Below, in pieces: positions 3,240 to 48,680 of a stretch of DNA of 64,000 bases (positions within the stretch are counted from its first letter, which is position 1; the number at the start of each line of letters is the position of its first letter). This DNA comes from Methanocaldococcus sp. FS406-22. Lineage in GTDB: Archaea; AGJL01; Methanococci; Methanococcales; Methanocaldococcaceae. The stretch spans positions 1,436,729-1,500,728 of the forward strand of contig NC_013887.1 in the NCBI RefSeq assembly GCF_000025525.1. Reading direction: 5' to 3'. The notes below the pieces were generated by a model. The model was not told where the DNA came from. It did not search any database and saw only the letters and a list, made by a program, of their open reading frames with translations. A program made the position numbers and the translations under genes.

Positions 3240-4022
3240 ATGTATGGGAATATTTGGGATTTAATTAAGGAAACTGATAATAAAACTATCCTATATTCTC
3301 ATGGAATGAAAAATAGGGTGTTGTTAAGTTATTTATTAAAGTTTAGGGAGGAGTATGGTTTTGATTTTGAGGCAGTAACCTTTATTTCAGATAGAAGTCC
3401 AAAATGGATAAGGGAAGAAATAAAATGGATTATGAAAGCAAATAATGTTAAACATAGATTTATTGAATGTGGAGAGTGCAAAATAACCTTAGAGAAAAAT
3501 GAACATGATTATCATTATGATTGTGTAGTTTGGGAAGGTATTAAAAATTTCAAAGGAGGAATTGTGGCGTCATCAATGGAGGGACATATTAAAGATAAAG
3601 AACGATTTTTAATGTGGTGTAGGGATTATAACCTATTTCCTCCTTTTATTCACTTAAATATCTCAAGAGAAGAGCTTGTTAAAGAATATGAAAAGTTAGA
3701 TAAAAACCTAATTTCAAGTTGCTATCACGTATGTGTGTTTTGTCCTATATTGTATAATCTGGGGAAGGGTTTAGTAAAATCAAAGATTTTCTATGAGAAA
3801 AAAGTTTTAATGGATGAAGAAAGAAAAGAGCATGCTTTAAATGAATTTTATAACGCTATGAAAGAGTATGACATTGGACGTATGGTTAATTTAGTTAAAA
3901 TTTATCATAATGAATACATAAGAGAGTTAGATGAATTATATGCCGATTATATAAAAAGTAAAGATGTTAGAGTGTTTGATAGATTAGTAAATACATGCAA
4001 AGATTATTTGAGGGTGGAATAA
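3240..4022 (+). CDS. Degenerate PP-loop (alpha-hydrolase-like) protein, cysteine-rich
   Basis: A 260-residue protein I cannot assign to a named family. Residues 17-33 (ILYSHGMKNRVLLSYLL) sit where a PP-loop ATPase has its SGGxDS motif, followed by an alternating beta/alpha pattern as in TilS/TtcA/PAPS-reductase-like enzymes, but the PP-loop itself is not canonical. Cysteines are paired: C77xxC80, then C161xxxC165xxC168, plus C95 and C127, which could bind zinc or an Fe-S cluster. The C-terminal third is helical. GGTGGTTTT precedes the ATG. Its TAA overlaps the ATG of the DUF4855-like gene, so the two are probably translated together. First gene of the accessory island. Confidence 0.7.
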   Translation: MYGNIWDLIKETDNKTILYSHGMKNRVLLSYLLKFREEYGFDFEAVTFISDRSPKWIREEIKWIMKANNVKHRFIECGECKITLEKNEHDYHYDCVVWEGIKNFKGGIVASSMEGHIKDKERFLMWCRDYNLFPPFIHLNISREELVKEYEKLDKNLISSCYHVCVFCPILYNLGKGLVKSKIFYEKKVLMDEERKEHALNEFYNAMKEYDIGRMVNLVKIYHNEYIRELDELYADYIKSKDVRVFDRLVNTCKDYLRVE

Positions 4023-25878: not shown

Positions 25879-26034
25879 ATGGGAAGCAACAAGCCATTAG
25901 GAAAGAAGTTGAGATTGGCTAAAGCATTAAAGCAGAACAGAAGAGTCCCATTGTTTGTTATTGTTAAAACAAGAGGGAGAGTTAGATTCCATCCAAAAAT
26001 GAGATACTGGAGAAGGAAGAAATTGAAAGCTTAA
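25879..26034 (+). CDS. rpl39e: Ribosomal protein L39e
   Basis: A 51-residue, strongly basic protein ([20 protein letters not shown] at the start, ending RRKKLKA) identical in design to archaeal L39e, which lines the exit tunnel. TAGGTGAG precedes two in-frame ATGs (25876 and 25879); I use the second, which gives the family N-terminus. The final 23 bases of this gene are part of a 25-bp direct repeat copied at 26163-26187. Confidence 0.95.
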
Positions 26035-26187
26035 ATTTAAATAAGAGGCATTAATTAGGGCTGAAAGCCCTAACTTAATGTATCGGTTTTGATGAAACCG
26101 AAGCGTTAGCTTCGGGCAATGAAAACCGTTTAGGTTTTCATCTAACTTTTACTAAAAGTTTCGAAGGAAGAAATTGAAAGCTTAAAT
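26012..26187 (+). repeat. 25-bp exact direct repeat flanking hairpin array
   Basis: The 25 bases at 26012-26036 (end of rpl39e plus two bases past the stop, starting GAAGGAAGAAATTG) recur exactly at 26163-26187. The two copies bracket the hairpin array. A long target-site duplication or slip duplication during insertion would explain this. Confidence 0.85.
26037..26162 (+). repeat. Five-hairpin array element (copy A)
   Basis: Between two copies of a 25-bp direct repeat lie five consecutive small hairpins: TTAGGGCT/AGCCCTAA (26055-26073), TCGGTTT/AAACCGA (26083-26101), GAAGC/GCTTC (26100-26113), TGAAAACC/GGTTTTCA (26120-26140) and AACTTTT/AAAAGTT (26144-26160), most with 3-5-base loops. A homologous array lies at 48481-48580. 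No open frame covers it. It may be a mobile non-autonomous element or a processed RNA. Confidence 0.75.
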
Positions 26188-46992: not shown

Positions 46993-47232
46993 TTATTTTT
47001 TATATACTTTTTCTCTTCTTTCCAAATCAATTAGGTATATGGTTTTACTTTCAAAATCAATCGCATATCTTAATCTAAAATCACCAAATCTTACTCTGAA
47101 TTGGGGAGGATGTCTGCCTTTTAATTTCTTTATATCAAAAGTATCAGGAAAGGGATTGTATTTTAGGATATTGAGGAACTCTCTCAATTTCTTTTTATTT
47201 GACTTTGGAAGAAATTCTATGGCTTTTAGCAC
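46993..47232 (-). pseudogene. relE: RelE/ParE-type toxin lacking its native start
   Basis: From GTG at 47232 the frame gives 79 residues with RelE features: NPFPDTFDIKKLKGRHPPQF, RVRFGDFRLRYAIDFESKTI, LIDLERREKVYKK. Upstream in the same frame family-like sequence continues (KIYSIKPSKK, the first strand and helix start), but there is no ATG, GTG or TTG before it. The frame instead runs into the GC-rich segment at 47268. So the gene probably lost its 5' end; the internal GTG could give a shortened product. RelE cleaves mRNA in the ribosome. Confidence 0.6.
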
Positions 47233-47267
47233 TTTCTTTGAAGGTTTTATGGAATATATTTTTCCAC

Positions 47268-47355
47268 CTCGCGCCCTGGTGTTACCATACCTCTGGAAAT
47301 ATTACCAGGGCGACTATTCTCAAACAACAGAGGGGGATAAATTCCCCAATAGCAT
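47268..47355. ncRNA. GC-rich structured RNA candidate with loop-loop contact
   Basis: Stem CGCCCTGGT/ACCAGGGCG (47272-47280 with 47304-47312) is perfect. Its loop holds CCTCTG (47290-47295), complementary to CAGAGG (47328-47333). The latter lies inside a second stem CTATT/AATAG (47314-47318 with 47348-47352), which also holds GGGGA/TCCCC. All pairs are Watson-Crick, so the strand is undecided. The minus strand has CCCAAAAATTATAAATATAC just upstream, a promoter-like element. On the plus strand it would be a leader of the 47396 gene. No known class recognised. Confidence 0.55.
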
Positions 47356-47395
47356 TTTTATGATAATTTCGTATATTTATAATTTTTGGGATAAC

Positions 47396-48475
47396 ATGCT
47401 TCCAAACAAAAAAGCACTGGAGATTATTAGAAAGTATATGAAAATCTACAATGGAAAGAATGAAGAAGATATTAAAGAAGATTTGATTAAGAGGCTAAAG
47501 GAAGAAAATGTCTTAGTAGAAACTGAGGATGGAACTTACACTTTAAAGGCAGAAGATGAAGAGGAGATGATGCATTCAAAGGTCGGGGCTTTAAAGGAAG
47601 CGATTTATAAGTTTGCTAAACCATCAAAAATTGAAAACTTAAAAAACCCGAGAATTTTAGATTTATGTAGTGGTATGGGATACAATGCTATAGCTGCTTT
47701 GCATTATAATAAAAATGCAGAGATTGATATGGTTGAGATTTGCGAAGAAGCTTTATTTTTAACTTTATTTTTAGATATCCCATATAAAGAGCATGAGATT
47801 ATAAAAGATAAGGTTAGAGAGTATTTTTTAAACAAAATTGGCATTGAATATAAGTCAGATTATGATAATATCAATTTATATGTTGGAGATGCGAGAAAAT
47901 TTATAATAAAGAGTGATAAAAAATACAATGTAGTTTTTCACGATGCATTTTCACCAAAGAGAGACCCTACCCTCTATACTTACGATTTTTTGAAAGAAAT
48001 TTATAAAAGAATGGAAGATAATGGAGTTTTGATATCTTACTCTTCAGCAATTCCTTTTAGAAGTGCTTTGGTTGATTGTGGTTTTGTAATTTCAGAAAAA
48101 GAGAGTGTTGGGAGAAAAAGAGGGATAACCTTAGCTTACAAAAACCCAAATTTTAAACCAAATAGAATTAATGAGGTTGATGAGAGAGTTATAGCTTTAT
48201 CAGTTATAGCCCTACCTTATAGGGATGAAACATTAAGTTTAACTAAAGATAAAATAATAGATGATAGAGAGAAAAGAAGAGAAAAGTTAAAAGAAAAATT
48301 AATTAAGATAGGAAAATACCTATCAACAAAACAGATAAAAAAAGGAAATATTCCAGAAGAGGTTTTAAAAATTCAAAAAGAAGATTTGAACTCATCAGAA
48401 ATAATTAAAAAGATGAGATTAAAGTTTTTCTCGAATATGGGCGATAAAATATTTATTGAGATGTCCAAATTTTAA
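47396..48475 (+). CDS. MnmC-like SAM-dependent methyltransferase
   Basis: About 359 residues starting MLPNKKALEIIRKYMK after GGGATAAC; the frame is open further upstream through the GC-rich segment, but that stretch is not protein-like. ILDLCSGMGYNAIAAL is SAM motif I, and VVFHDAFSPKRDPTLYTYDF matches the MnmC/Methyltransf_30 signature. MnmC methylates wobble uridine in tRNA; archaeal relatives lack the oxidase domain, as here. C-terminal ~100 residues are basic and helical. Target inferred. Confidence 0.8.
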   Translation: MLPNKKALEIIRKYMKIYNGKNEEDIKEDLIKRLKEENVLVETEDGTYTLKAEDEEEMMHSKVGALKEAIYKFAKPSKIENLKNPRILDLCSGMGYNAIAALHYNKNAEIDMVEICEEALFLTLFLDIPYKEHEIIKDKVREYFLNKIGIEYKSDYDNINLYVGDARKFIIKSDKKYNVVFHDAFSPKRDPTLYTYDFLKEIYKRMEDNGVLISYSSAIPFRSALVDCGFVISEKESVGRKRGITLAYKNPNFKPNRINEVDERVIALSVIALPYRDETLSLTKDKIIDDREKRREKLKEKLIKIGKYLSTKQIKKGNIPEEVLKIQKEDLNSSEIIKKMRLKFFSNMGDKIFIEMSKF

Positions 48476-48480
48476 TTTAC

Positions 48481-48580
48481 GCCTCTAAGCATTAGCAAAG
48501 AGGCATTAGTTTTTGATAAAACAGAAAGCCTGCTTTCTGGCTACAAATCCGTAGGATTTGTTCAACTTTTACTAAAAGTT
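48481..48580 (+). repeat. Five-hairpin array element (copy B)
   Basis: Five consecutive hairpins: GCCTCT/AGAGGC (48481-48504), GTTTT/AAAAC (48509-48522), CAGAAAG/CTTTCTG (48522-48539), ACAAATCC/GGATTTGT (48543-48561) and AACTTTT/AAAAGTT (48564-48580). Order, loop sequences (TGAT, CCGT(TT)AGG, ACT) and the last hairpin match copy A at 26037-26162, while inner stems differ by paired changes. It lies between the MnmC-like gene and the helicase promoter. Confidence 0.75.
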
Positions 48581-48621
48581 TCATGCAAACCTTTTTATAC
48601 TATAAACTCATAGTTGTTGAG

Positions 48622-48647
48622 GATGCTAAAATCTCTTTTTTAGCATC
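48622..48647 (+). promoter_or_regulatory. 10-bp hairpin in the leader of the DEAD-box helicase mRNA
   Basis: GATGCTAAAA pairs with TTTTAGCATC around a TCTCTT loop. It lies 25-60 bases before the helicase start and downstream of a TATA-like TTTTTATACTATAA (48591-48604), so it is in the 5' leader. It could control translation or be the helicase's own substrate (autoregulation); this is inference. Confidence 0.5.
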
Positions 48648-48680
48648 TTTAAAAATGAATTTTATTAGGAAGTGGAATAT

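Follow-up and report, generated by a model that had tools for sequence, protein, structure and literature searches.

Suyama, Lathe and Bork reportedly described the palindromic repeats MJRE1-3 in Methanocaldococcus jannaschii in 2005 (FEBS Lett 579:5281); these are said to average ~100 bp and to occur in many copies, mostly in intergenic regions. We know of no report of target duplications, cassette gain or loss, or a core common to DPANN archaea for MJRE1-3. A literature search with the letters of the core described below and the MJRE names returned no archaeal paper, and we found none on long duplications, cassette turnover or a wide archaeal core. Set beside MJRE1-3, the element reported here is from the same genus and is likewise palindromic and present in many, mostly intergenic, copies, and genome G004, which we take to be the M. 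jannaschii chromosome, carries multicopy palindromes of the kind (15 model matches, 16 exact cores). The preliminary description of this DNA knew of no named family, which is probably wrong for Methanocaldococcus, palindromic repeats of M. jannaschii having already been published; the Methanocaldococcus part of the family probably overlaps the MJRE palindromes.

In the review PMC10969869, prokaryotic MITEs are presented as small, non-coding, mobile, multicopy, intergenic and target-duplicating. Our element is likewise short, non-coding, multicopy and mobile, as judged from element-free orthologous sites and 84 model matches, and it is also intergenic and target-duplicating. Unlike MITEs, it has no terminal inverted repeats bounding the composite: the core is one palindrome, and the left and right ends of the arrays differ. 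Its duplications, moreover, vary from 23 to 62 bp and are not of a length typical of a parent transposase, and no such parent was found. REP and BIME sequences, as portrayed in PMC2817692, are palindromic modules in mosaics and occur with RAYT transposases. The element resembles them in combining palindromic modules into mosaics and differs in having target duplications, a core common to several phyla and 22 of 32 core-bearing genomes without a Y1 transposase.

Two hairpin arrays in the window

The window, the whole stretch of DNA that was analysed (64,000 nucleotides of Methanocaldococcus sp. FS406-22), contains two hairpin arrays, both of which lay where the preliminary description had placed them (26055-26160 and 48481-48580); their parts, as listed below, are all on the plus strand. 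Copy A (26046-26162) is downstream of an rpl39e-like gene. Copy B (48479-48584) is flanked by a 478-aa open reading frame (47039-48475) and one starting at 48672, presumably DEAD-box helicase-like to judge from its sequence. Both arrays folded better than dinucleotide shuffles (z -6.27 for copy A, -3.35 for copy B). An Rfam scan of the window at gathering scores returned tRNA only, with neither array matching any family. A third blastn match in the window, near 3691-3711, was rejected as chance; it lies within coding sequence and lacks the core.

The two arrays had been said to share the same series of hairpins. The first hairpin is GCCTCT..AGAGGC in copy B versus CATTAATTAGGG..CCCTAACTTAATG in copy A, and therefore the correspondence holds for four of the five. 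The common order runs from a TTTTGAT-type segment through a short G/C hairpin and a CCGT(TT)AGG hairpin to an identical AACTTTTACTAAAAGTT hairpin, and the right part of both arrays consists of TTTTGAT-NAAAC, hairpin X, a linker, hairpin Y, a second linker and CTTTTACTAAAAGTTTC.

Copy A (L011) begins with the head hairpin CATTAATTAGGGC..GCCCTAACTTAATG (26049-26080). The first part of its core, TTTTGAT plus the 5' arm GAAAC (26087-26098), is followed by a cassette of hairpin X, (CCGAAGC)gtta(GCTTCGG), at 26098-26115 and, after the linker GCA, hairpin Y, (ATGAAAACC)gttta(GGTTTTCAT), at 26119-26141. The second part of the core, the hairpin AACTTTT-act-AAAAGTT plus TC, forms the constant right end (26144-26162). 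The array is flanked by a 25-bp target duplication, of which the left copy is the 3' end of the rpl39e-like gene (26012-26036) and the right copy abuts the element (26163-26187) and is identical to the left at 25/25 positions. The head hairpin of copy B, GCCTCT..AGAGGC (48481-48504), is absent from the orthologous array of G001 and is the apparent counterpart of a CACCTCC..GGAGGTG head in other copies. The first part of its core, TTTTGAT plus the 5' arm AAAAC (48511-48522), is broken by one cassette, comprising hairpin X, (CAGAAAG)cctg(CTTTCTG), at 48522-48539 and, preceded by the linker GCT, hairpin Y, (ACAAATCC)gta(GGATTTGT), at 48543-48561; the second part and constant right end (48564-48582) reads as in copy A.

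A separate hairpin, GATGCTAAAA..TTTTAGCATC, lies at 48614-48655, upstream of the helicase-like reading frame. It is conserved in G001 and G004, is present with changes in G005 and G006, and is perhaps a leader regulating that gene.

The core, its cassettes and its distribution

Blastn against the array's own genome gave 49 pieces with copy B (E<=10) and 47 with copy A (E<=1); merging pieces within 250 bases left 49 places in this genome, some of them weak. Across the genus, copy B found relatives in 5 of 14 genomes (E<=0.001). The covariance-model search suggested with the preliminary description reached further: a model built on 18 arrays gave 84 matches in 10 of the 14 (E<=0.001), with 21 in G000, 17 in G001, 15 each in G002 and G004, 10 in G011 and one or two in each of five others. 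The notion that just two copies exist, with covariation no better than in shuffles, is thus contradicted both by the 84 matches and by compensatory change far above shuffles.

The core is 28 nt long and consists of TTTTGAT and, after it, a hairpin built as NAAACTTTT-nnn-AAAAGTTTN'; free of cassettes, it reads TTTTGATGAAACTTTTACTAAAAGTTTC. The 5' arm of this hairpin carries, in Methanocaldococcus, from zero to three two-hairpin cassettes (three each in L008, L009 and L085). These exact cassettes sit between the core halves, in the order X, linker GCT or GCA, Y, then TCAA, TTAA or CTAA. Hairpin X types include the one in copy A, (CAGAAAGC)ttt(GCTTTCTG) and (TGGAAAGC)ttt(GCTTTCCA), and Y types include those of copies A and B, (ATAAAATCC)aaa(GGATTTTAT) and (ACAAAAACTC)gaa(GAGTTTTTGT). 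The rpl39e site has no cassette in G001 and G004 and one in G000 and G002, that of G002 with a different Y hairpin. At the site of copy B, G000 has the head and one cassette, G001 has three cassettes without a head, and G004 lacks the element. Such differences at orthologous sites indicate that whole modules are gained and lost as units. Further recurrent modules, CCATAGGG..CCCTATTGGTATACCC and GTGGGGCTGAA..GCCCC, were seen in the same mosaics (L016, L017, L136, L142).

Within the order, 14 of 36 genomes held an exact variant of the core, and a degenerate 24-base core pattern matched 46 stretches in 84,980 species genomes, 45 of them labelled archaea and one a WWE3 bacterium. The archaeal matches came from Micrarchaeota (9), Methanocaldococcus (7), Pacearchaeota (7), Methanovirga (6), Aenigmatarchaeota (4), Nanoarchaeota (3), Diapherotrites (3), other Methanococci (2), Thaumarchaeota (2), Methanobrevibacter (1) and an unnamed archaeon (1); many are DPANN. 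When up to three mismatches were allowed, all 26 genomes chosen for having the pattern contained copies, up to 24 each, and the reversed pattern gave none. Viral contigs yielded one match to the archaeal pattern; blastn of the two arrays against plasmid and phage collections, one array per collection, found no match. Among 117 cores, a set in which the search pattern favours GC, the outer stem pair beside TTTTGAT covaried (GC 78, CG 18, AT 11, TA 8, unpaired 2).

Archaeal tRNA introns spread between tRNA genes, and some cores recall them: a tRNA gene spans the core in six of the eight loci given to Rfam (L162, L167, L169, L178, L198 and L202), while ARAGORN reported no tRNA at the tRNA-spanned core loci. 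Unlike such introns, most copies lie elsewhere in the genome, and there is no RNA splicing that could explain them there.

Empty sites and flanking repeats

An element-free orthologous site was present in at least one relative at all 11 displayed loci, with up to seven relatives each; the 11 leave out locus 403285 (relatives L102 and L124). At several sites the element is present in certain species and missing from more closely related ones, a pattern implying that it has been lost, transferred or inserted more than once; site 82725, for example, is occupied in G000, G001 and G011 and empty in G004. Insertions were found at gene borders and junctions, at the 3' ends of tRNA genes and within tRNA introns. 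At 1330626 the repeat spans an overlapping stop and start, and by eye both genes remain complete.

Direct repeats between left and right flanks (score >=35) were detected at 15 of the 49 places, with 0.2 expected from mismatched flank pairs, about 11 of 2352 of which reached that score (top control scores 58, 56 and 54). One of the 15 (755338) is far from the element and probably due to chance. The repeats are mostly 25-62 bp long, and many start directly after the right end of the core; at the rpl39e site in relatives, the matched repeat is ~23 bp. The flanking repeat of copy B was not significant (p 0.63), and about 34 of the 49 copies in this genome lacked one, as did 101-107 of the 117 cores. 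Ten of these 117 had a direct repeat that was anchored at the core's right end and scored >=28, versus 1.5 expected from an anchored, cross-locus control; a plain cross-pair control is inflated where elements of a single locus overlap. Anchored repeats outside the genus include those of Aenigmatarchaeota L173, Pacearchaeota L186/L187 and Diapherotrites L281.

Repeats at tRNA 3' ends begin at GTTCGAATC. In the second repeat copy the T-loop C was changed to T (GTTCG to GTTTG; TTTGA in L280) in six of six cases by eye (L161, L179, L203, L280 and G000 places 1167436 and 1666022), perhaps reflecting selection against a second T arm. Cores were also seen in tandem, spaced by 27-109 bases, in L173, L176, L186, L187 and L188 and at G003 places 245459, 767404 and 1110521, as if insertion and repeat had been amplified together. 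At 833840, G001 and G011 (L106, L129) have ~700 bases, which by eye resemble a VapBC-type toxin-antitoxin pair, at the border where G000, G002 and G005 carry the palindrome.

Paired stem changes and the means of movement

The compensatory stem changes noted in the preliminary description were borne out. Two-sided cells numbered 49 in the 18 arrays versus 16.4 in shuffles, and 109 in 43 distinct arrays versus 39.2, in an alignment fitted to the model (0/500 shuffles in both cases). When pairs were slid by 1-3 columns, paired cells dropped from 98% to at most 67%. No excess of further pair types was seen in the 18-array set (13 versus 14.6 in shuffles). The earlier reading of a structured, repeated element with changes on both arms stands and fits replication through a structured intermediate; its other suggestion was selection on structure, and selection on an RNA is not supported.

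We consider it likely that the arrays arose through insertion of a miniature mobile DNA palindrome, non-coding and with a 28-nt core. The core would move in the form of a DNA hairpin, either single-stranded or snap-back, and be joined into a staggered break, where fill-in of 23-62 nt overhangs would yield the duplications. Stem changes could stay paired without selection on RNA because one arm would template the other, and insertions at gene borders would survive because the duplication leaves both gene ends complete. The enzyme may be supplied by host repair or replication proteins; no transposase, parent element, excised form or enzyme moving the element was found. Evidence against such a palindrome includes the want of a significant flanking repeat at copy B and most other copies, a duplication length that varies, unlike that of usual transposases, and a synonymous excess between repeat copies that a decaying duplication does not explain.

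That excess was measured in 13 repeat pairs with reading frames set by hand, leaving out the tRNA repeats, those at 177652 and 934 kb and others without a clear frame, and using only the part of 1568386 past its one-base gap. Changed codons were synonymous in 39 cases and not in 12, with 44% synonymous expected if one copy were neutral (P 2e-6), and therefore the second copy is either constrained or imported. Import could occur if small circles, bearing the palindrome together with one copy of a diverged relative's gene end, were inserted by a single crossover, so that the repeat is not made locally. The predominance of synonymous differences would fit, and at four of nine loci (833840, 1568386, 609933 and 82725) the second copy matches the allele of another species slightly better than it matches its own partner; yet the margins are just 1-3 bases, the other five loci have no such pull, and 23-62 bp of homology is short for recombination, which makes this route highly improbable. 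Selection on RNA pairing, maintaining either a structured non-coding RNA or an element of an mRNA, would account for the strong two-sided covariation, and the one-sided paired changes in the first 18 arrays were all G.U types (5). This wobble asymmetry (5 to 0) was gone in the larger set, where stem mismatches in the 43 distinct arrays were 11 G.T and 10 A.C. G.U should prevail if one RNA strand were conserved, and so the near equality does not support RNA selection. Among 26 places examined, 18 were between codirectional reading frames, called mechanically, and the element was sense in nine and antisense in nine. The Rfam result and these two balances led us to reject an RNA gene; with the element often absent from sites in relatives as well, we regard selection on RNA as unlikely, and a mobile DNA palindrome is the best reading of the element.

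Among known enzymes, a Y1 transposase moving a non-autonomous IS200/IS605-type element (REP- or PATE-like) is suggested by the hairpin ends, the small size and TTTTGAT, which resembles what we take to be the TTGAT target of that family. Y1_Tnp was found, however, in 2 of the 14 genus genomes and 10 of the 32 core-bearing ones, and in G000 the Y1/TnpB element has no TTTTGAT..CTTTTnnnAAAAG. An IS605 parent in this genome was rejected, since its one IS605 element has other ends. Target duplications, which to our knowledge the family does not make, also set the element apart from REP and PATE derivatives, and we find such an origin improbable. A Cas1-type integrase, acting as a casposase or in CRISPR adaptation, would duplicate its target; casposons habitually insert at tRNA and gene 3' ends, as some of these elements do, and some copies adjoin CRISPR arrays. 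(CRISPR-like repeats were seen within or beside elements at L103, which is site 467335 of G001, L168, L185 and G000 place 1208998.) Against this, the duplications are not of fixed length, and Cas1 was found in 13 of the 32 core-bearing genomes, so that this too seems very unlikely. Both Cas1 and Y1 were missing from G017, G020, G023, G027 and G029, which have at least 11 copies each and are mostly MAGs of unstated completeness that may be incomplete. An exact right end, a variable left junction and variable duplication length would suit a retro-element, whose RNA hairpin is turned into DNA by target-primed reverse transcription; RVT_1 occurred in none of the 14 genus genomes and there was no RNA strand signal, and we hold this to be extremely unlikely. 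On this evidence none of the three enzymes is a required partner: the presence of Cas1 or Y1 does not track the core, and reverse transcriptase was rejected on the absence of RVT_1 from the genus.

Returning to the mobile DNA palindrome, a wider form of it is possible, and we offer it tentatively: a pan-archaeal 28-nt palindrome that spreads without a dedicated transposase, with host replication or repair inserting the folded DNA at staggered breaks, each event writing a 23-62 bp duplication, and that grows in Methanocaldococcus through two-hairpin cassettes. If true, it would rank with the smallest mobile elements and represent a class not seen before. A 28-base sequence common to methanogens and several DPANN phyla, at up to ~24 copies per genome, raises the question of how so small a DNA moves and crosses phyla, and its long, variable target duplications fit no transposase family tested here. 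Two-sided stem change, usually taken as selection on RNA, can arise from DNA palindromes. If confirmed, the element would offer a testable route by which archaea gain tRNA introns, as well as a marker for exchange between DPANN and other archaea.
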